From positions 310,001 to 374,000 of the forward strand of contig NZ_JYIJ01000019.1 in assembly GCF_001543895.1 (NCBI RefSeq): a stretch of 64,000 nt of DNA. Direction: 5' to 3'. A program made the translations under genes and the position numbers. The notes below the pieces were generated by a model. The model did no database searches. It saw only the letters and a program-made list of their open reading frames with translations, and was not told the origin of the DNA. Each line of letters opens with the position of its first letter. Position 1 is the first letter of the stretch. This DNA is from Carbonactinospora thermoautotrophica (GTDB lineage: Bacteria > Actinomycetota > Actinomycetes > Streptomycetales > Carbonactinosporaceae). Of this stretch, positions 1-12,798 are shown piece by piece.

Positions 1-14
1 AAGGAGTGACCCGG

Positions 15-1073
15 ATGCCGGCGACGTACCGGGTGACCGTCGAGCCGCTCGGACAACAGGTCGACTGTCGCGAGGACCAGCCCATCCTGGATGCCTGCCT
101 GCGCGCCGGGATCTGGCTGCCGCATGCCTGCACACACGGCACCTGCGGCACCTGCAAGGTGGAGATCCTCGACGGCGAGGTCGACCACGGCGACGCTTCG
201 ACGTTCGCCCTGATGGACTTCGAACGCGATGAGGGCAAGACCCTGCTCTGCTGCGCGCGGCCCCGCTCCGACGTGACCATCGAGGGCGACGTCGAGGTCG
301 AGGAGGGCGTCACCACCTATCCGGTGCGCGACTTCGTCGGCACGGTCGCCGCGGTCGAGGACTGCGCCACCGACACCCGCCGGCTGCTCATCGACCTCGA
401 CCACGACATCGCGTTCAACCCCGGCCAGTACGTGTCCCTCGAGGTGCCCGGCACGGGGGTGAGCCGCACGTACTCGATGGCCAACCCCCCGGCCGAATCC
501 CGCCGCATCGAGTTGCACATCCGCCGCACCCCCGGCGGGCTGGCCAGCGACGGCTGGATCTTCAAGACCCTGGCGCCGGGGGACACGGTCCGCCTCTCCG
601 GCCCGTACGGCCGTTTCTTCTGGCGCCCCGCCCGCACCGAGCCGGCCATCTGCATCGCCGGCGGCACGGGGCTGGCGCCGATCAAGGCCATGATCCGGCA
701 CGTGCTGGAAACCGGCGCCGACCGCGAGATCATCCTCTACCATGGCGGGCGCACCGCGGCCCACATGTACGACGTCGACTACTTCCGCGCGCTGGAGGAA
801 GCCCATCCCGACCGGTTCCGCTACCGGCCGTGCCTGTCCGATGAGCAGGCGGCCGGGTACCAGACCGGGCTGGTCACCGACGTGCTGGCCGCCGAGATGG
901 ACACCTGCCGCGGCCACGTCGCCTACGTGTGCGGCCCGCCGCCCATGGTGGAGGCCGCGCTGCGCACCCTCATGGCCAAGCGGCTGTTCCCCCGGGACAT
1001 CTACCGGGAGGACTTCTACGACGCCTCGGACAAGGCCGCCGCGAACGTGCGCAGCCCCCTGCTCAAGCGGTGA
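15..1073 (+). CDS. dmpP: Phenol hydroxylase-type ferredoxin/FAD reductase
   Basis: Electron-transfer component that would pass electrons from NAD(P)H through FAD and a 2Fe-2S cluster to a phenol/aromatic hydroxylase. The 352 residues match the roughly 350 usual for DmpP-type reductases. A plant-type 2Fe-2S domain comes first, with C39-x4-C44-x2-C47 and a distal Cys at 79. The FAD-binding motif RTYSMANPP and the nucleotide-binding motif GGTGLAP follow, and CGPPPMVEAAL lies near the C-terminus. The ATG at 15 is chosen because AAGGAG lies at 1-6; an in-frame GTG at 6 would sit inside that site. The oxygenase subunits are not visible and may precede the window. The exact hydroxylase partner is inferred. 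Confidence 0.85.
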   Translation: MPATYRVTVEPLGQQVDCREDQPILDACLRAGIWLPHACTHGTCGTCKVEILDGEVDHGDASTFALMDFERDEGKTLLCCARPRSDVTIEGDVEVEEGVTTYPVRDFVGTVAAVEDCATDTRRLLIDLDHDIAFNPGQYVSLEVPGTGVSRTYSMANPPAESRRIELHIRRTPGGLASDGWIFKTLAPGDTVRLSGPYGRFFWRPARTEPAICIAGGTGLAPIKAMIRHVLETGADREIILYHGGRTAAHMYDVDYFRALEEAHPDRFRYRPCLSDEQAAGYQTGLVTDVLAAEMDTCRGHVAYVCGPPPMVEAALRTLMAKRLFPRDIYREDFYDASDKAAANVRSPLLKR

Positions 1074-3589: not shown

Positions 3590-3659
3590 ACGACGCACGT
3601 AAATTCCTGGTAACAGGCGTGTGTCCCCGGTGCGGACAAAGACTCGGGAGGTCACGCCG

Positions 3660-4481
3660 ATGACTCCTCAGCCGACAGTTACCCAGGACACCCTTGCCCA
3701 GGACACTGCCAAACCCATTCCCTCCCCGAGGAACGGGACGGACGGGGGCCTCCGGTCGGTCCTCGCCGCTTTGGACCTGCTCGACTGCTTCGCCTCCGCC
3801 GACGAGCTCGGCGTCTCCGAGATCGCCCGCCGGCTGGGCCTCGCCAAGAGCACCGTGCACCGGCTGCTCACCACGTTGTGCGCGCGTGGCCTGGCGGAGA
3901 AGAACCCGCACACCTCCCGGTACCGGCTCGGGTTCCGCCTCTACGAACTGGGCCAGCTCGCGATCAGCCGGTTCGAGCTGCGCCAGGCCGCCCTGCCACT
4001 GCTGGAGGAATTGCGGGAACGCACCGGCTGCACGATCCACCTGGCGATCCCGGACGGCGCCGACATCGTGTACGTCGAGCGGTTGCAGACGCTGCGCGGC
4101 ATGCGGCTGATGACGAACGTCAGCCGGCGCCTGCCGGCGCACTGCACCAGTTCCGGCAAGGCCATCGCCGCGTTCGACCCCGCGGTCGCGCAGGCTCGCC
4201 GGGCGGCGGGTTTCCCGCAGCTCACCAGCTGCTCGATCCGCAGCGCCGCCGACTACGACCGGGAGCTGGAGGCGGTACGCCGCACCGGGTACGCGGTCAA
4301 CCACGACGAGGCCCTGGTCGGGCTCAGCTCGGTGGCCGCGCCGGTCCGCGACCACGAGGGGCGCGCCCGGGCCGCGATCTCGCTGGTCGGATTGAGTCGC
4401 GAGATCGAGAGCGCGATCGAGCGCAACGCCCGCTTGGCCCAGGCCGCCGCCAACAAGCTCGCGCGGACGCTCTGCCTGTGA
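3660..4481 (+). CDS. IclR-family transcriptional regulator (second of two)
   Basis: A 273-residue IclR protein. It has an unconserved N-terminal tail, a winged helix (EIARRLGLAKSTVHRLLTTL) and an effector domain with GCTIHLAIPDGADIVYVE, RLPAHCTSSGKAIAAF and GYAVNHDEALVGLSSVAAPV. The ATG at 3660 is preceded by GGGAG at about 3646-3650, with better spacing than any upstream start. It runs toward the meta-cleavage operon that begins at 4765 and is the most likely local regulator of that operon, by position. Two adjacent, divergent IclR genes suggest separate control of the upper (1-2760) and lower (4765-10013) gene sets. Confidence 0.87.
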   Translation: MTPQPTVTQDTLAQDTAKPIPSPRNGTDGGLRSVLAALDLLDCFASADELGVSEIARRLGLAKSTVHRLLTTLCARGLAEKNPHTSRYRLGFRLYELGQLAISRFELRQAALPLLEELRERTGCTIHLAIPDGADIVYVERLQTLRGMRLMTNVSRRLPAHCTSSGKAIAAFDPAVAQARRAAGFPQLTSCSIRSAADYDRELEAVRRTGYAVNHDEALVGLSSVAAPVRDHEGRARAAISLVGLSREIESAIERNARLAQAAANKLARTLCL

Positions 4482-4764
4482 CCCGCTGGTCGCCGGAGCG
4501 GTCCATACGTTTCTTTCCCGGTTTTCCTTCCCCGGTTTCTTCTGATCTCTCCCCGGTCCCCCGATCTCTCCCCGGCCGCCGTTCGTCCCGCCGGAGGAGC
4601 AGGGTGCCGGTCCGCCAGAACCGCTGTTCCGCGCTCGGGAACGTCAGCCCCGTGCCGCCGGCTCCCCGCCTAGCGTGCGGAGTGGGCGGCCCGCGGTCTC
4701 GACGATCCGGGGCCGTCGATCCTTGGCTGCCCAGGCTGAGGCCTGACCGACCTGTGAGGTGTTC
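4482..4764 (+). promoter_or_regulatory. Leader/promoter region of the meta-cleavage operon
   Basis: These 283 bases contain no gene and precede six coupled genes, so they should carry the operon promoter. Visible structure includes a tandem GATCTCTCCCCGG repeat near 4545-4575 and an inverted repeat GTTCC (4626-4630) / GGAAC (4638-4642), a candidate IclR operator. No convincing -35/-10 pair was identified. Confidence 0.35.
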
Positions 4765-5553
4765 ATGGATGCGCAGACGCGCCGGCTCGCCGCCGACCTG
4801 TTGCTGTCGGCGTACGAGACCGGGGCGCCGGTCGAGCCGCTGACCGAGAAGTTCGCCGACCTGACGGTGGAAGACGCCTACGGTATCCAGCTCGCCCAAG
4901 TCGAGCAGTGGTGCGCCCGAGGCGCCCGGGTCAAGGGCCACAAGGTGGGGCTGACCTCGGCGGCCATGCAGCGGCAGATGGGCGTGGACACACCCGACTT
5001 CGGCCATCTGCTGGACTCGATGTTCTTCCTGGAGAACCTGCCGATCCCGGTGGGGCGTTTCCTACAGCCGCGGGTGGAGCCGGAGGTGGCCTTCGTGTTG
5101 AAGTCGCCGCTGGCCGGTCCCGGGGTGACGGCGGCGGAGGCCGCCGCCGCGGTGGACTTCGTGCTCCCGGCGCTGGAGATCATCGACTCCCGGATCCGGG
5201 ACTGGCGGATCACGCTGGTGGACACGATCGCCGACAACGCCTCCTCCGGAGGGGTGGTGCTGGGCAGCCGGCCCACGCCGCTGTCCGCGGTGGATCTGCG
5301 CCTGGCGGGCTGCACCGTGCACCGGGGCGGTGAGGTGGTGGCCACCGGCGCCGGGGGAGCGGTCCTGGGGTCACCGTTGAACGCCCTGGTGTGGCTGGCC
5401 AACACGCTCGGGCCGTTGGGCGTGTCGCTGGAGGCGGGACAGGTCGTGCTGCCCGGGTCGGTGACCGCCGCCGTGCCGGTGGCGGCGGGGGATGTGGTCA
5501 CGGCGACCTTCGCCGGGCTGGGCAGCGTGACGGCGGTTTTCGAAGGAGCGTGA
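4765..5553 (+). CDS. dmpE: 2-oxopent-4-enoate hydratase
   Basis: Adds water to 2-hydroxypenta-2,4-dienoate to give 4-hydroxy-2-oxovalerate. The 262-residue protein shows the family motifs [47 protein letters not shown] and [11 protein letters not shown], the acidic residues forming the metal site. The ATG at 4765 follows GAGG at 4756-4759; an in-frame GTG at 4759 overlaps that site and is less likely. It is first in the operon and ends three bases before the next gene. It is called hydratase rather than oxalocrotonate decarboxylase by operon order (E-F-G-H-I) and closer fit, but the two families are homologous and could be swapped. Confidence 0.85.
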
Positions 5554-5555
5554 GC

Positions 5556-6470
5556 ATGAGCAAGGCGGTGGCGGCGATCGTCGGGCCGGGCAACATCGGC
5601 ACCGACCTGCTGGCCAAGCTGCGGCGTAGCGAGCACGTCGAGGTTCGCTACATGGTCGGGGTGGACCCGGCTTCGGAGGGCCTGGCGCGCGCCCGCGAGC
5701 TTGGCGTGGAGACGTCGGCGGAGGGCGTGGACTGGCTGTTGGCCCAGGACGAGCTGCCCGACCTGGTGTTCGAGGCGACTTCCGCCAAGGCCCACCTGGC
5801 CAACGCCCCACGGTACGCCGAAGCCGGCATCCAGGCGATCGACCTCACCCCGGCCGCGGTTGGGCCGTACGTGTGCCCGCCGGTCAACCTCGACATCCAC
5901 GTCGACGCGCCGAACCTGAACATGATCACCTGTGGGGGGCAGGCCACGATCCCGATCGTGCACGCCGTCTCGCGGGTGGTGCCGGTGCCGTACGCGGAGA
6001 TCGTGGCGTCGATCGCCTCGCGGTCGGCCGGCCCCGGCACGCGGGCCAACATCGACGAGTTCACCCAGACCACGGCCGGCGCGATCGAGAAGATCGGCGG
6101 CGCCGGGCGGGGCAAGGCGATCATCATCCTCAACCCGGTGGACCCGCCGATGATCATGCGGGACACGGTGTTCTGCGCGATCCCAGCGGACGCCGACCAG
6201 GAGGCGATCAGCGCCTCGATCCACGCGATGGTCGCCGAGGTGCAAAAGTACGTGCCCGGCTACACGCTGCGGGCCGAACCGCAGTTCGACCCCCCGCGCG
6301 AGGGCTGGGGAGGCCACGCCCGGGTCGCGGTCTTCCTGGAGGTCCGCGGCAACGGCGACTACCTGCCACCGTGGGCTGGAAACCTCGACATCATGACCGC
6401 CGCGGCCGCCCGCGTGGGTGAGCTGCTGGCGCAGGCACGGACGACGAAGGAGACGGCGGCGAGGACATGA
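5556..6470 (+). CDS. dmpF: Acetaldehyde dehydrogenase (acylating)
   Basis: Oxidises acetaldehyde with NAD and CoA to acetyl-CoA, working in a channelled complex with the aldolase encoded next. The 304 residues are the family length. An N-terminal Rossmann motif ([11 protein letters not shown]), the conserved EATSAKAH segment and the active-site Cys in [12 protein letters not shown] are visible, with NLDIMTAAA near the C-terminus. The ATG at 5556 follows AAGGAG at 5543-5548, which lies inside the end of dmpE. The last four bases overlap the start of the aldolase gene (ATGA), consistent with translational coupling of the two partners. Confidence 0.95.
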
Positions 6471-7543
6471 GCGGCGAGGACAAGAACGGGACCAAGTCCG
6501 GCGAGCGGGCGTTGCGGATCACCGACTCGACGTTGCGGGACGGCTCGCACGCGATGGCCCACCAGTTCACCGAGGAGCAGGTGCGGGCCACCGTGCACGC
6601 CCTGGATCAGGCCGGGGTGGAGGTGATCGAGGTCTCCCACGGCGACGGGCTCGGCGGGTCGTCGTTCAACTACGGCTTCTCCCGGACCGACGAGATCAAG
6701 CTGATCGCCGCCGCGGTGGAGGAGGCCCGGCAGGCGCGGATCGCCGTCCTGCTGCTGCCCGGTGTCGGCACGGTGGAGGATCTGAAGGCGGCGCACGACG
6801 CCGGGGCGCAGGTGGCCCGGATCGCCACCCACTGCACCGAGGCGGACGTGTCGATCCAGCACTTCGGCGTGGCGCGCGAGTTGGGCATGGAGACCGTGGG
6901 GTTCCTCATGCTCGCCCACCGGATCGGGCCCGCGGAGCTGGCCCGGCAGGCGCGGATCATGGTGGACGCCGGCGCCCAGTGCGTGTACGTGGTCGACTCC
7001 GCCGGCGCGATGGTGCTGTCCGACACCCAGGAGCGGATCGCGGCGCTGGTCGCCGAGATCGGCCGGGACGCCCAGGTCGGCTTCCACGGCCACCAGAACC
7101 TCTCCCTCGGCGTGGCCAACTCAGTGCTGGCCTACCAGGCCGGGGCGCGGCAGATCGACGGCGCGCTGTGCGCGCTCGGGGCCGGGGCCGGCAACTCCCC
7201 GACCGAGGTGCTCGCGGCCACCTTCGACCGGCTCGGCATCCCCACCGGGGTGGACGTGCAGGCCGCGCTCGCCGCCGCCGAGGAGGTCGTCAAGCCGTAC
7301 CTGCCGCGCCTGCCGTGGACGGACCGCGCCTCGATCGTCCAGGGCTACGCCGGCGTGTACTCCAGCTTCCTGCTGCACGCCGAACGCGCCGCCGCCCGGT
7401 ACGGCGTGCCCGCCCACGAGATCCTCCAGCGGGTCGGCGAGGCCGGCTACGTCGGCGGCCAGGAGGACATGATCATCGACATCGCCATCCAACTCGCCCA
7501 GGAACGCGAGATGGGTGACCTGGCTGCCACGGGAGTCCGCTGA
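6467..7543 (+). CDS. dmpG: 4-hydroxy-2-oxovalerate aldolase
   Basis: Class II, divalent-metal-dependent aldolase that splits 4-hydroxy-2-oxovalerate into pyruvate and acetaldehyde. The acetaldehyde is channelled to the DmpF partner. 358 residues. The TIM-barrel N-terminus carries the signature [15 protein letters not shown] (catalytic Arg-Asp, and a His as general base), followed by [27 protein letters not shown] and [15 protein letters not shown] with metal-binding His residues. The start overlaps dmpF by four bases, and the stop overlaps the next start by one base. This is the most secure assignment in the operon. Confidence 0.96.
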
Positions 7544-8367
7544 TGAGCAAGACCACCACGCCGGCGACGGCGCGGAACATCGAATGGGCCGTGGCCACCC
7601 TGCGGGAGGCCGAACTCACCCGCACCGACCGCGGGCCGATCACCGAGGAGTGGCCGGACCTGGACCTGGACACCGCGTACGCGATCCAGGACGAGATGGT
7701 CTGTCGCCGCGTGGAGTCCGAGGGGGAGACCATCGTGGGGGTCAAGCTCGGGCTGACCTCCCGCGCCAAGCAGCGGCGGATGAACGTGGACTCCCCGCTG
7801 ACCGCGTGGCTCACCGACGCCATGGTGCTGCCCGCGGGCGCGCCGGTGCCCCTGGATGAGCTGATCCACCCCCGGGTGGAGCCGGAGATCGTGTTCGTGC
7901 TGGGCCGGCGGCTGGCCGGCCCCGGGGTGACCGCGGCCACGGCCCTGGCCGCGGTGGAGCGCGTGTACGCGGGGATCGAGATCATCGACTCCCGCTACAC
8001 CGACTTCCGCTTCACCCTGCCGGACGTGGTCGCCGACAACGCGTCCGCGGCCCGCTTCCTCCTCGGCGGCGTGGGCCGCCGGCCCGAGGAGCTCGACCTC
8101 GCCCTGGAGGCGTGCCTGCTGGAGGTCGACGGCCGCGTCGTGGACACCGCCACCGGCGCCGCGGTGCAGGGTCACCCCGCCGAGGCCCTGGCGCTGGCCG
8201 CCAACTCCCTCGCCCGCCGCCAGGTCGCCCTCGAACCCGGGTGGATCGTGCTGACCGGCGGCATGACCGACGCGGTGCCGCTGCGGCCGGGGTCTCGGGT
8301 GGCCGCCCACTTCACCAACCTGGGCTCGGTCGTGGCCGCCGCCCCGGCGCGCGGGGAGGCCGGCTGA
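7543..8367 (+). CDS. dmpH: 4-oxalocrotonate decarboxylase
   Basis: Metal-dependent decarboxylation of 2-oxohex-3-enedioate to 2-hydroxypenta-2,4-dienoate. 274 residues, paralogous to dmpE: AYAIQDEMVCRRV, GVKLGLTSRAKQRRM, PRVEPEIVFVLG, GIEIIDSRYTDF, DNASAARFLLG. The change from GHKVGLTS to GVKLGLTS and the position between aldolase and tautomerase favour the decarboxylase over a second hydratase. The start shares one base with the aldolase stop, and the stop TGA at 8365-8367 overlaps the tautomerase ATG. In this family the decarboxylase and hydratase form a physical complex, which fits the coupled gene layout. Confidence 0.85.
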   Translation: MSKTTTPATARNIEWAVATLREAELTRTDRGPITEEWPDLDLDTAYAIQDEMVCRRVESEGETIVGVKLGLTSRAKQRRMNVDSPLTAWLTDAMVLPAGAPVPLDELIHPRVEPEIVFVLGRRLAGPGVTAATALAAVERVYAGIEIIDSRYTDFRFTLPDVVADNASAARFLLGGVGRRPEELDLALEACLLEVDGRVVDTATGAAVQGHPAEALALAANSLARRQVALEPGWIVLTGGMTDAVPLRPGSRVAAHFTNLGSVVAAAPARGEAG

Positions 8368-8576
8368 TGCCGCTGGTCGAGGTGACCCTTGTCGAGGGCC
8401 GGGCGCCGGAGACGATCCGGGCGCTGATCCACGCGCTGCACGCGGCCGTCCGGGACACCGTCGGCGCACCGGACGCCAGCATCCGCGTCGTCGTCCGCGA
8501 GGTCCCGGCGACCCACTGGGCCGCCGGGGACGTGACGATCGCGGAGCGGCGTGCCAACGAGATCGTGGAAAGGTGA
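8367..8576 (+). CDS. dmpI: 4-oxalocrotonate tautomerase
   Basis: Small tautomerase that converts 2-hydroxymuconate to 2-oxohex-3-enedioate. The 69-residue polypeptide begins MPLVEVTLVEGR; after Met removal Pro1 is the catalytic base. The RAPETIRALIHALHAAV helix and the VVVREVPATHWAAGD segment fit the family. Family members are about 62 residues; the extra C-terminal residues are unremarkable. The ATG overlaps the decarboxylase stop, and the stop lies just before the next ribosome-binding site. Its presence shows that the oxidative (dehydrogenase) branch of meta-cleavage is complete. Confidence 0.9.
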   Translation: MPLVEVTLVEGRAPETIRALIHALHAAVRDTVGAPDASIRVVVREVPATHWAAGDVTIAERRANEIVER

Positions 8577-8579
8577 CTG

Positions 8580-10013
8580 ATGGACTTCTTCGGGCACTTC
8601 ATCGACGGCCAGGAGGTCCCCTCCGCGGACGGCGCGACCTTCGACAGCGTCGATCCCTGGACCCGCGAGCCGTGGGCGCGGGTCGCTCTCGGCGGCCGGG
8701 TCGAGGTCGAGCGCGCGGTCGCCGCGGCGCGCCGGGCGTTCGACTCCGGGCCCTGGCCCCGGATGGGGTACGCCGAGCGCGGCCGCATCCTGCACCGGCT
8801 CGCCGACCTGGTCGAGGCCCACGCCGACGAGCTGGGCATGGCCGATACCCGGGACATGGGCAAGCCGATCAGCCAGTCGCGCGGGAACGACGTGCCGCGC
8901 GCGGCGATGAACCTGCGGTTCTTCGCCGACCACGCCCGGCTGGCCACCGCCGAGGTGCTGCCGATGGACTCCGGCCACCACGCCTACACCAGGTTCGAGC
9001 CGGCCGGGGTGGTCGCCGCCATCGCCCCGTGGAACTTCCCGCTCATGCTGGAGACCTGGAAGATCGCGCCCGCGCTGGCCTGGGGCAACACCGTGGTGCT
9101 CAAGCCGGCCGAGGACACCCCGGCCTCCGCTACGCTGCTGGCCCGGCTGGCGGCCGAGGCCGGCATGCCGCCCGGCGTGCTCAACGTCGTCCACGGCTAC
9201 GGCCCGGACTCCGCCGGCCAGGCCCTCACCGAGGCGGACGGTGTGGACCGCATCACCTTCACCGGTGAGTCCGCCACCGGCCGCGTCATCGCTCGCGCGG
9301 CGGCCCGCCGGCTGGTCCCGGTGTCGCTGGAGCTGGGCGGCAAGGGCGCCAACCTCGTCTTCGCCGACGCGGACCTGGACAACGCCGTGGACTGGTCGAT
9401 CAAGGCCATCTTCACCAACACCGGGCAGGTGTGCCTGGCCGGCAGCCGGCTGTACGTGCAGCGCCCCGTCTACGAGGAGTTCCTGGCCCGGTTCGTGGCC
9501 GCGGCCGAGGCCATGACCGTCGGCGACCCCACCCTGGAGACCACCCAGATCGGGCCGCTCGCCAGTGCCGAGCACCACGCGAAGGTCTGCGGGTACGTCC
9601 GGAGCGTCGAGGCCGAGGGCGGCAAGATCCTCACCGGCGGCCTCGGCGACGGGTGGATCGTCCGGCCCACGGTCGTGGTCGACATGCCGGCCACCGCCCC
9701 GCACTGGCGGGAGGAGATCTTCGGGCCGGTCGTGGTCGTGGCCCCGTTCGACACCGAGGCCGAGGCCGTGCAGGCCGCCAACGACACCCCCTACGGCCTG
9801 AACGCGATGTTGTTCACCGACAACCTGCACCGCGCTCACCGCGTTTCGGCCGCGCTGCGGGCCGGCACCGTGTGGGTGAACTGCTTCTTCATCCGCGACC
9901 TGCGCGCCCCGTTCGGCGGCGTCGGCGACTCCGGCATCGGCCGCGAGGGCGGCACCTTCAGCCGCGAGTTCTTCACCGAGCCCAAGGCTGTGGTGATGCA
10001 GATCAACTCGTAG
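8580..10013 (+). CDS. dmpC: 2-hydroxymuconic semialdehyde dehydrogenase
   Basis: NAD-dependent aldehyde dehydrogenase that oxidises 2-hydroxymuconic semialdehyde to 2-hydroxymuconate, the entry to the oxidative branch. 477 residues. Motifs include APWNFPLML, the general-base Glu in SLELGGKGANLVF, and the catalytic Cys in TNTGQVCLAGSRLYV, with APFGGVGDSGIGREGG near the C-terminus. AAAGG at about 8569-8573 precedes the ATG at 8580. As the last gene of the operon it lies immediately upstream of the direct-repeat region before the dikinase genes. Assignment to this substrate rests on operon context; the ALDH superfamily is broad. Confidence 0.88.
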   Translation: MDFFGHFIDGQEVPSADGATFDSVDPWTREPWARVALGGRVEVERAVAAARRAFDSGPWPRMGYAERGRILHRLADLVEAHADELGMADTRDMGKPISQSRGNDVPRAAMNLRFFADHARLATAEVLPMDSGHHAYTRFEPAGVVAAIAPWNFPLMLETWKIAPALAWGNTVVLKPAEDTPASATLLARLAAEAGMPPGVLNVVHGYGPDSAGQALTEADGVDRITFTGESATGRVIARAAARRLVPVSLELGGKGANLVFADADLDNAVDWSIKAIFTNTGQVCLAGSRLYVQRPVYEEFLARFVAAAEAMTVGDPTLETTQIGPLASAEHHAKVCGYVRSVEAEGGKILTGGLGDGWIVRPTVVVDMPATAPHWREEIFGPVVVVAPFDTEAEAVQAANDTPYGLNAMLFTDNLHRAHRVSAALRAGTVWVNCFFIRDLRAPFGGVGDSGIGREGGTFSREFFTEPKAVVMQINS

Positions 10014-10150: not shown

Positions 10151-11830
10151 ATGACCGGATGGGACAGGGCCCTGGCGGGCGAACCGTGGTACCCGGAGGC
10201 GCCCGCCGGGCACGGGGGTTCCGGCGGGTTCGAGGATCCCGCCGTGCTGCGCCCGCCGGACCTGGGTCGCGCCTGGCACCGTGACTTCCACTACCCGCGA
10301 GGGGTCGTGCCGCTCGGCGCCGCACTGGTCGCGGATCTCGTCCGCGGCGCCCAACAGGCCGTCCGGACGCTTCGGTTGTCCGCCTCGGGCGGGCTGGCCG
10401 CCCGTTTCGTCGGCCCGTACGTCTACCTGGGCACCGCGCGGGCGGACCCGCCCTCGGCGGCGGAACGAGCGGCCGCGCTCGCCGACGTCCGCGGCTACCC
10501 CGCACGGTTCCGCGGCCACTGGGCCGCGGCGCGGGCCGAGCTGGAGGCCCGGCTGCGCGAGCTGGAGCAGGCCCCCGTCGAGGACTTCGACCCGCCCGCG
10601 CTCGGTGCGTACCTGGCCCGGGCCTGGCAGGTCCACGCCCGCGCCTGGCAGGTCCACTTCGAGGTGATGTACCGGCTGCTGGCCAGCCACGAGCTGATCC
10701 GCGACGAGCTGGCCGGGCTGGGCGTGGACGGCGACGAGCTGCTCCGGCTCCTCCACGCCGAGGACAACAGCGTGCTCGCCGGCGACCGCGCCCTGTCCGC
10801 CCTGGCGGCCAGTGCCCGCCGGGCCGGCCTGGCCCATCTCTTCACGGAGCACTCCGGCCCGCTGTTGCCCCGGTTAGCGCGGCACGAGGCCGCGGCGGCC
10901 TGGCTCGCCGAGTTCCGGGAGTTCCTCGCCGTGTACGGGCAGCGCTGCGACGCCCTCGGCGACCTCACCAGACCGTCGTGGGTCGAGGACCCCGAACAGC
11001 CGCTCGCTCTGGTCCGGATGCTGCTGCTCGGCGAGGCCACTCGCCCGGCCGGCGCGGGCGGCGGCATCCCGCACCGCGCCGGCCGGGCGGGCGGCCTCCC
11101 CGCCAGAGGCGCCGCCCTGGTCGAGGACGCCCGGCGGGCGAACGTCGTCTGGTGGAACGAGGAGCACAACCTGGTCATCGACCTGCGCGCCCACCTGCCG
11201 ATCCGCCGGGCGGCGCTCGCGCTGGCCGCAGCCACCGGCGCTCCGGAACCCGACGCGGTGCTGTTTCTGTTCGCCGAGGAGGCGGACCGGCTGGCCCACG
11301 GGCTGACCGGCTGGGCGGAACTCGCCGGCCTGGTCGCGGCCCGGCGCGCCTATTACCAGGCGTGGCGCGAACGCCGCGAGGAACTGCCCAGCTTCCTCGG
11401 CACGCCCGCAGCCGACGAGGGCGACCCCGTCGTGAAACAGATCATCAGCGCCGGCTGGTGCGGGGCCGGGTCCGCACCGGGCGAAACCCCGCGGGTGCTC
11501 CGGGGACTCGGCGTGTCCTGCGGCACCGCCCGCGGCCGAGTCCGGGTGCTGCGCTCCCCCGACGACCTCGCCTCGCTCCGCCCGGGAGAGGTCCTGGTCT
11601 GCGAGGCGACCTCGCCCAGTTGGACACCGGTCTTCAGCCTGCTCGCCGCCTGCGTGTGCGACGTCGGCGGCATGCTCACCCACGCGGCGACGATCAGTCG
11701 CGAGTACGGGATTCCCTGCGTGTGCGACGTGGGCTCGGCGACCCGGGACCTGCGCGACGGCGACGAGGTGGAGGTCGACGGGACCAACGGCACGGTGACC
11801 CTGCTCGCCCGGCCCGACCCGGTGCGGTGA
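10151..11830 (+). CDS. Phosphohistidine-domain subunit of a split PEP-synthase-like dikinase
   Basis: A 559-residue protein ending in a PEP-utilising mobile (swivelling phosphohistidine) domain: GVSCGTARGRVRVL, then VLVCEATSPSWTPVFSLL and GGMLTHAATISREYGIP with the predicted phospho-acceptor His511. The first ~450 residues are helical and resemble the substrate-binding middle part of rifampin phosphotransferase-like enzymes, not PEP-binding domains. It lacks an ATP-grasp domain, which the overlapping next gene supplies. The layout matches phenylphosphate synthase (about 70 kDa His-bearing subunit plus about 40 kDa ATP-binding subunit) and actinobacterial cresol-phosphorylating enzymes. The likely job, phosphorylating a phenolic compound, is an inference from this layout and the adjacent meta-cleavage genes. 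Start ATG with GAAGG at 10141. Confidence 0.7.
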   Translation: MTGWDRALAGEPWYPEAPAGHGGSGGFEDPAVLRPPDLGRAWHRDFHYPRGVVPLGAALVADLVRGAQQAVRTLRLSASGGLAARFVGPYVYLGTARADPPSAAERAAALADVRGYPARFRGHWAAARAELEARLRELEQAPVEDFDPPALGAYLARAWQVHARAWQVHFEVMYRLLASHELIRDELAGLGVDGDELLRLLHAEDNSVLAGDRALSALAASARRAGLAHLFTEHSGPLLPRLARHEAAAAWLAEFREFLAVYGQRCDALGDLTRPSWVEDPEQPLALVRMLLLGEATRPAGAGGGIPHRAGRAGGLPARGAALVEDARRANVVWWNEEHNLVIDLRAHLPIRRAALALAAATGAPEPDAVLFLFAEEADRLAHGLTGWAELAGLVAARRAYYQAWRERREELPSFLGTPAADEGDPVVKQIISAGWCGAGSAPGETPRVLRGLGVSCGTARGRVRVLRSPDDLASLRPGEVLVCEATSPSWTPVFSLLAACVCDVGGMLTHAATISREYGIPCVCDVGSATRDLRDGDEVEVDGTNGTVTLLARPDPVR

Positions 11831-12798
11831 TCCCCTGGGTGACCGCCCCGACCGCCGACCGGGAGGTGTGCGGCGGCAAGATGGCGTCCCTGGCCAGGCT
11901 GGCCGCGGCGGGCCTGCCCACGCCCCGGGGGTTCGTCGTCACCACCGCGGCGTTCCGGGAGGTCCTCGACCCGACCGGCCTCACCGAGCGGGTCAGCGCG
12001 ATCCTGCGCACGATGCCACCCGGGCCGGCGCGGCTGCACGCCGTCGACGCCGTCGCCCGCGAGGTGATCCTCACCGCCCCCTGGCCACTCGCCCTGGAGG
12101 CGGCGCTCCGCGAGGCCCACGCCGAGCTGACGGGCCGGACCCCCGAGCGGCCCCTCGCGGTGCGCAGCTCCGCGACCTGGGAGGACACCCCCACCGCCAG
12201 CGCCGCCGGGCAACTGCGCAGCGTCATCGGCGTCACCGGACCCGCCCGCCTGCGCCTCGCCGTCCCGCGGGTCTGGGCCGCCGCCTTCTCGCCCACGGCC
12301 GTCGCCTACCGCGAGCGCGCCGGCCTGCCCGCCGTTCCCCGGCCCGTCGCCGTCGGGGTCCAGGAACTGGTGGCCGCCCGGCTGTCCGGCGTCGCCTACT
12401 CAGCGCATCCCGTCACCGGCGACACCGCGACCCTGGTGATCGAGGCGATCACCGGCTTGTGCGGTCCACTCGTCGACGGCCGTGTGGTGCCCGAGCACCT
12501 GGAACTGGGTCGGGACGGCTCGCTGCGGGCGCGCCGGCCCGCCCGCCAACACCTGGCGGCCCACTACGACCCCGTCCGGCAGGCCGTGGTGGAGCGGGCC
12601 GCCTCCGAACCCGTCCGCCTGGGCCCCGAGCACCTCGACGTGATCCGCCGCGGGTTGCTGCGGGCCGAGGCGGTGTTCGGCCGCCCGGTGGACATCGAGT
12701 GGAGTTGGCACCCGGCCACCGGGCTCACCATCCTCCAGGCCCGGCCGGTCACCGTGCCCGGCACGTCCCGCGTCTCCGCGGGCGGGCCGGTCTGCTGA
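11827..12798 (+). CDS. ATP-grasp subunit of a split PEP-synthase-like dikinase
   Basis: A 323-residue protein corresponding to the PPDK/PEP-synthase N-terminal ATP-binding domain. It has GGKMASLARLAAAGLPTPRGF at the start, LAVRSSATWEDTPTASAAGQ (nucleotide-binding Arg and Asp/Glu), QELVAARLSGVAYSAHPVTGD, and the terminal DIEWSWHPATGLTILQARPV. No phosphohistidine or PEP domain is present. The GTG at 11827 overlaps the TGA of the preceding gene (GTGA), so the two subunits are probably translated together. It would use ATP to phosphorylate His511 of the partner. Substrate unknown; an aryl phosphate synthase is the best guess from context. Confidence 0.72.
   Translation: MIPWVTAPTADREVCGGKMASLARLAAAGLPTPRGFVVTTAAFREVLDPTGLTERVSAILRTMPPGPARLHAVDAVAREVILTAPWPLALEAALREAHAELTGRTPERPLAVRSSATWEDTPTASAAGQLRSVIGVTGPARLRLAVPRVWAAAFSPTAVAYRERAGLPAVPRPVAVGVQELVAARLSGVAYSAHPVTGDTATLVIEAITGLCGPLVDGRVVPEHLELGRDGSLRARRPARQHLAAHYDPVRQAVVERAASEPVRLGPEHLDVIRRGLLRAEAVFGRPVDIEWSWHPATGLTILQARPVTVPGTSRVSAGGPVC

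Follow-up and report, generated by a model that had tools for sequence, protein, structure and literature searches.

A predicted two-component small-molecule dikinase adjoining an aerobic meta-cleavage operon in an actinobacterium

Two overlapping genes, designated kinA and kinB, were analysed in a stretch of 64,000 nucleotides of the genome of Carbonactinospora thermoautotrophica (the window). Their products probably move phosphate from ATP onto a small molecule, and the recurring cluster context of the genes suggests a phosphorylation step in the classic aerobic pathway that has not been described before. Our best explanation is that KinA-KinB is a two-component small-molecule dikinase which works in aerobic benzene, toluene and phenol meta-cleavage and phosphorylates a hydroxyl group, most likely that of phenols, cresols or catechol; we see about as much for this reading as a whole as against it.

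Gene pair and its neighbourhood

Both frames are intact and lie on the + strand (Table 1). The kinA frame starts with ATG and encodes 559 aa, the kinB frame starts with GTG and encodes 323 aa, and the two overlap by GTGA. The third-position GC content of the frames is 0.92–0.95. Pfam assigned to KinA the PEP-utilisers mobile domain alone (PF00391, residues 477–547, 9e-23) and to KinB the ATP/AMP-binding, PPDK_N-type ATP-grasp domain alone (PF01326, residues 14–313, 7e-62). The open reading frames and Pfam domains bear out the original prediction of two overlapping genes at 10151-12798, following dmpE-F-G-H-I-C. The GGxxxH swivel loop with the catalytic His is present in KinA as VGGMLTH511; Cys occupies the place of T/S in the published catalytic-His motif. 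The counterpart of the predicted phospho-His511 in HpeH, H581, is essential (PMC12167813). The split layout is more than chance, since the two-gene architecture with a 4-bp overlap (GTGA or ATGA) recurs in homologs from distant actinobacteria (loci L056, L066, L067, L070, and L071).

Table 1. Features of the kinA-kinB locus (positions in the window)
Feature	Position	Strand	Basis or remark
DmpP-like reductase	6..1073	+	last gene of phenol hydroxylase operon begun upstream of the window
IclR-family regulator	3621..4481	+	52–60% identity to kinase-adjacent IclR of Mycobacterium clusters
DmpE, 2-oxopent-4-enoate hydratase	4759..5553	+	
DmpF, acetaldehyde dehydrogenase	5556..6470	+	ORF opens at 5391; likely start ~5556
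DmpG, 4-hydroxy-2-oxovalerate aldolase	6467..7543	+	
DmpH, 2-oxo-3-hexenedioate decarboxylase	7543..8367	+	
DmpI-like 4-oxalocrotonate tautomerase	8367..8576	+	inside ORF 8112-8576; MPLVEVTLVEGR...
DmpC-like 2-hydroxymuconic semialdehyde dehydrogenase	8580..10013	+	directly upstream of KinA
KinA, substrate-binding domain (~1–430) and His swivel domain (~447–553)	10151..11830	+	ORF, Pfam, AF2 model
WWNEEHN motif, residues 334–340, clade signature in KinA substrate domain	11150..11170	+	alignments
Predicted phospho-histidine His511 codon, in VGGMLTHAA	11681..11683	+	invariant in all aligned homologs
KinB, ATP-grasp subunit	11827..12798	+	ORF, Pfam; GTG start within GTGA overlap with KinA

In KinB, the G(W/F)GE of most relatives is replaced by GLCGP, so that the Glu of GWGE is gone, and the conserved C-terminal tail of the relatives is absent. 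The KinB of MAG YF2 (L081) has the related sequence GLGVP at the same site; the change therefore looks inherited within a sublineage rather than a product of random decay. Most ATP-grasp residues are retained.

The pair comes after the six dmp genes on the same strand, separated from dmpC by a gap of 137 bp in which no terminator was detectable. Upstream of the window, the + strand carries a Dmp-type phenol hydroxylase operon, a ferredoxin gene and a catechol 2,3-dioxygenase (C23O) gene; the - strand there carries a toluene monooxygenase operon of the TmoABCDEF type. Together with the dmp genes, they form a complete aerobic toluene/phenol meta-cleavage locus with KinA-KinB at its end, and these neighbours speak for a part in the aerobic breakdown of aromatic compounds. 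The DmpC of the window is 80% identical to the Mycobacterium Bu41 copy that adjoins the kinase genes there, and copies related to its DmpI were found in four further mycobacterial loci (L107, L108, L109, and L111). Among the genes examined around the pair, no carboxylase, P450 or phosphatase was recognised, though a distant one would escape; no transporter or resistance gene was recognised adjoining it. The neighbouring zinc alcohol dehydrogenase gene, for which a benzylic step had been proposed, lies on the strand opposite to the pair, and related kinase clusters contain no equivalent of it; we abandoned this idea.

A GlcG/HbpS-like gene is located at 2338-2760 of the window and also in the dmp clusters L107, L108, L109, L110, L111, L092, and L096. 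The same genome has a second toluene-monooxygenase-type alpha subunit (G000:C15:45670-47172), which shares 55% identity with the copy upstream of the window.

Fold and enzyme class

The AlphaFold (AF2) model of KinA had a pLDDT of 80.7. Over 465 residues, nearly its whole length, it could be aligned with rifampin phosphotransferase (RPH), covering both the substrate and the swivel domain of that enzyme (Z 22, rmsd ~4 Å), whereas PPDK, PEP synthase, pyruvate kinase, and enzyme I matched only the swivel domain. No PEP synthase match over the KinA substrate domain was listed by Foldseek/VIA, an absence that is weak evidence alone, and Pfam found no C-terminal PEP/pyruvate-binding domain in either KinA or KinB; PEP synthase identity was rejected for this latter reason. 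The two proteins scored 89 and 166 bits with TIGR01418 (PEP synthase; cut-off 740) and 118 and 150 bits with the NCBIfam equivalog NF041857 (rifampin phosphotransferase; cut-off 999). With both equivalogs, the scores are far below the cut-offs. Orthology to a PEP synthase or an antibiotic phosphotransferase, outcomes named beforehand as contrary to the original prediction, was not found. A plasmid search with KinA gave no full-length relative, and the matches covered mostly the swivel domain. Since the likeness to RPH extends over 465 residues and that to PEP synthase and PPDK over the swivel domain only, we regard KinA-KinB as a two-component small-molecule dikinase and not a PEP synthase. 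The assignment as a dikinase is predicted with high confidence. As had been proposed from the domain split, it is a split dikinase built like PpsAB, CreHI, and HpeHI, with the domains in separate genes and an RPH-like KinA model.

Phylogenetic position and active-site motif

Reference proteins were picked by operon: CreH (L063) in a cre-like cluster of Rhodococcus ruber, PpsA (L084) beside ppcBDAG in Azoarcus KH32C, and, in Rhizobium, an HpeH-like protein (L083) with biotin carboxylase and HAD genes as neighbours. They are 44–46% identical to one another (44–49% once the Rhodococcus JS3073 copy is included), and KinA is 22–23% identical to all three and 25% identical to the Streptomyces RPH tested. 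A joint alignment of KinA and the homolog from genome G168, used to scan genome contigs, yielded 16 further loci. In the trees, KinA and the scanned loci formed one clade and the phenolic kinases another, with a support of 100/100 (or 100/99). In the second tree, the window KinA paired with that of MAG YF2 (100/100); its branch was long in both trees. The KinA clade was nearer to the phenolic kinases than other split kinases were in one of the two trees. Because this position varies with sampling between the trees, we do not claim the KinA clade as a sister of the phenolic clade.

The motif of the KinA clade is WWNEEH(N), with WWQDDH(N) or WWQDEH in some Mycobacterium. The substrate-domain motif of the phenolic kinases, E(N/D)HxxxxEH(W/Y), does not occur in KinA, which has WWNEEHNLVIDLR, and the alignments show a two-residue insertion before the KinA motif relative to those kinases. 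By sequence, KinA belongs to a clade separate from the known phenol kinases. The low identity, the different motif and the separate clades rule out an ortholog of PpsA, CreH or HpeH, and the proposed membership in the phenylphosphate-synthase-like family found no support. The original prediction was right in its observation and half right in its functional idea.

Related gene pairs in other genomes

The actinobacterial MAG YF2 has the order dmpE-F-G-H-(dmpC fragment)-kinA-kinB-tmoA, in which dmp and kinase genes follow one another as in the window; the coverage of this MAG is low, and the kinase frames in it are broken. The kinase pair of Mycobacterium SM1 and Bu41 is flanked by a 2-oxoacid dehydrogenase set on one side and an IclR-tmoA block on the other, with dmp genes on the same contig. 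The kinase was also found in five further genomes of the SM1 genus (L107, L108, L109, L110, and L111). All except L108 have the order (phenol hydroxylase), C23O, glcG, dmpP, (dmpD), iclR, kinA, kinB, dmpE, dmpH, (dmpI), dmpC on one strand, so that the pair is part of the dmp operon, with IclR before it and DmpE after it; the phenol hydroxylase of L111 is outside the fetched part, and dmpI was seen where searched (L107, L109, and L111). At L108, kinA adjoins dmpQ-C23O, and no kinB was recognised there. The tie to aerobic phenol/toluene meta-cleavage that the original prediction drew from a single locus is therefore kept in the clusters of Mycobacterium and MAG YF2.

A phenolic substrate is plausible. 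The best hint comes from genome G115 (L092), with a TmoA ~80% identical, in which a kinase of the CreHI clade (CreH 53%, CreI 48%), a known phenolic type, is found in a meta-cleavage cluster of its own, that is, in the same setting. The CreHI-type genes of this locus (G115:C23, L092 4901-12736) lie between two C23O genes and a Rieske oxygenase-like gene, and a haloarchaeal relative (L086) likewise has Rieske dioxygenase genes close by. These two loci suggest a kinase-plus-Rieske route for phenols.

In G168 and Acidimicrobiia, members of the KinA clade stand beside SDR, alcohol or aldehyde dehydrogenase, HAD phosphatase, and 2-oxoacid dehydrogenase genes and not beside aromatic genes. In Actinomycetospora (L072 7863-12502 and other loci), kinA is followed by an inositol-monophosphatase-family gene and two MetE-like (cobalamin-independent methionine-synthase-like) genes; a nearby kinB was evident only at the related locus L078. 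Judging from these neighbours, the KinA clade may span several substrates, perhaps non-aromatic ones. A conserved 2-oxoacid dehydrogenase partner was considered and rejected: such genes are present in SM1/Bu41, Acidimicrobiia, and G168, but the window and L081 genomes have no close copy (best matches 41% and 39%, respectively).

Other split dikinases were met as well. Thermomicrobium roseum (L065 7977-13508) and G145 (L091 7407-11350) carry another type, whose recurring cluster also holds GntR, cyclase-family, xanthine-dehydrogenase-like, and fumarylacetoacetate-hydrolase-like genes, and L078 holds a second copy related to it. In L060, L061, and L113, the ATP-grasp subunit precedes the swivel subunit and MFS transporter-like genes follow directly; these systems perhaps serve drug or toxin modification plus export.

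Co-occurrence with aromatic monooxygenases

Of 248 genomes of the genus of Mycobacterium SM1, 6 have the kinase, and exactly these also have a phenol hydroxylase alpha subunit and a TmoA of at least 76% identity (Fisher 3e-12 assuming independence, which does not hold for these six). Being related to one another, they do not represent six independent events. Another 24 genomes of the genus have a less similar TmoA; with the cut-offs applied, neither a KinA-type kinase nor a phenol hydroxylase was matched in them. Across the sampled phylum, a TmoA of at least 55% identity was found in 6 of 10 kinase carriers vs. 3 of 395 other genomes (the window genome being left out of the 395); G115 is one of these three. 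With lineages collapsed, three of the six kinase-carrier lineages had such a TmoA (p = 4e-5). KinA-KinB is likely to belong to the aerobic aromatic pathway.

Proposed role and alternative explanations

By analogy with PpsAB, HpeHI, and RPH, KinB would bind ATP; the beta-phosphate would pass to His511 on the KinA swivel domain, the gamma-phosphate would leave as Pi and AMP would be released. The swivel domain would then swing to the RPH-like substrate domain and hand the phosphate to a hydroxyl group. The likeliest acceptors would be phenols or cresols from the Tmo monooxygenase, or catechol made from those, and a charged aryl phosphate may trap and detoxify a diffusible intermediate. Our confidence in a phenolic acceptor is evenly divided. 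Several points count against the best explanation: the KinA clade is orthologous to none of the tested phenol kinases, its members in G168 and Acidimicrobiia stand apart from aromatic genes, no enzyme to use an aryl phosphate was recognised among the genes examined around the window pair, KinB has lost the Glu and the C-terminal tail, and the KinA branch is long. A wider proposal, that phosphorylation is a regular but hitherto unrecognised step of aerobic benzene, toluene and phenol meta-cleavage in a group of actinobacteria, with the pathway passing through a phosphorylated compound (an aromatic or a ring-fission intermediate) made by a new two-component dikinase clade, or storing it reversibly, is tentative and in our view rather doubtful.

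A pathway kinase might instead act on a non-aromatic ring-cleavage product (the enol 2-hydroxypenta-2,4-dienoate, 4-hydroxy-2-oxovalerate, an alpha-hydroxyketone or a 2-oxoacid derivative) and not on a phenol. The place of KinAB directly before DmpE-H-I-C in the Mycobacterium operons agrees with this, as do the 2-oxoacid dehydrogenase genes adjoining the kinase in SM1, Bu41, Acidimicrobiia, and G168. However, the KinA fold is that of a small-molecule hydroxyl kinase rather than a pyruvate-binding domain, the window and L081 genomes have no close dehydrogenase copy, and the kinase of a comparable cluster in G115 is of the phenol type; we consider such an acceptor unlikely. A PEP synthase for gluconeogenesis from the pyruvate released by DmpG is scarcely conceivable: its swivel and ATP-grasp domains are homologous, but KinA has an RPH-like domain in place of the PEP/pyruvate-binding C-terminal one, and a further PF01326 protein is encoded elsewhere in this genome, on contig C18, by a 913-aa frame that is probably PPDK.

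A detoxifying or antibiotic-type phosphotransferase of the RPH kind, standing beside the dmp operon by chance, would account for RPH being the closest solved fold and would have a parallel in the MFS transporter-like genes after other split dikinases of the phylum. We hold it improbable, given that in several lineages the pair co-occurs with dmp/tmo genes and is syntenic with them, that the KinA-RPH identity is only 25%, and that no transporter or resistance gene was recognised beside the pair in the window. The chance of a true ortholog of PpsAB, CreHI or HpeHI, which the shared two-component layout and catalytic motif could suggest, is very remote in view of the separate clade (100/100), the identity of 22–23% vs. 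44–49%, and the other active-site motif. It is also quite improbable that the pair is no longer a working kinase, being a regulator or a decaying relic. The PPS-like regulator PspR, reported in PMC10948481, is a precedent for a non-kinase role, and the long KinA branch and the altered KinB fit it; against it speak the intact frames with their third-position GC of 0.92–0.95, the retention of His511 and most ATP-grasp residues, and the related, apparently inherited change in the L081 KinB.

To our knowledge, the textbook pathway for aerobic meta-cleavage of phenols (dmp/tmo) includes no kinase. Nothing relevant on a kinase in aerobic phenol operons was found in the literature (open-licence PMC papers), and the word kinase is absent from a paper on Rhodococcus alkylphenol meta-cleavage (PMC6710988). 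If the preferred reading of KinA-KinB as a dikinase of this pathway is true, a kinase conserved in dmp/tmo operons would add a step to it and would explain how cells retain diffusible toxic phenols. This reading is directly testable, as Mycobacterium genomes with the kinase are at hand and the list of candidate substrates is short.

Comparison with known systems

PEP synthase and PPDK have ATP-grasp and swivel domains in common with KinA-KinB but differ in the PEP/pyruvate-binding domain. RPH (RPH-Lm, 5HV1, 5FBT) is the closest solved fold over nearly all of KinA; it is a single chain with the ATP-grasp domain first and an antibiotic substrate, whereas KinA-KinB is encoded by two genes with the swivel subunit first.

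Phenylphosphate synthase PpsAB has the same architecture, and we infer a similar phospho-His chemistry; it is anaerobic, and its genes adjoin phenylphosphate carboxylase ppcBDAG (Azoarcus KH32C). The 4-cresol kinase CreHI, for which the cre-like cluster of R. ruber served as reference, has this architecture too and comes from an aerobic actinobacterium, with an aldehyde dehydrogenase nearby; its partners P450, ferredoxin, HD-domain, and SDR were not seen at the window pair. The identity of KinA is 23% to the PpsA and to the CreH used. HpeHI of Rhodococcus rhodochrous GD02 (PMC12167813; PMC9618137) also separates an ATP-grasp subunit from one with an RPH-like substrate domain and a His swivel domain, and HpeH, like the KinA model, is related in fold to rifampin phosphotransferase (PMC12167813). 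The hpe genes include a carboxylase and a phosphatase, unlike those recognised around KinA-KinB, and the HpeH-like protein tested, at 22% identity, belongs to the other clade. The settings of the two systems are alike, both being aerobic actinobacterial aromatic catabolism. If our reading is true, KinA-KinB would be an addition to the recently described two-component dikinases PpsAB, CreHI, and HpeHI.
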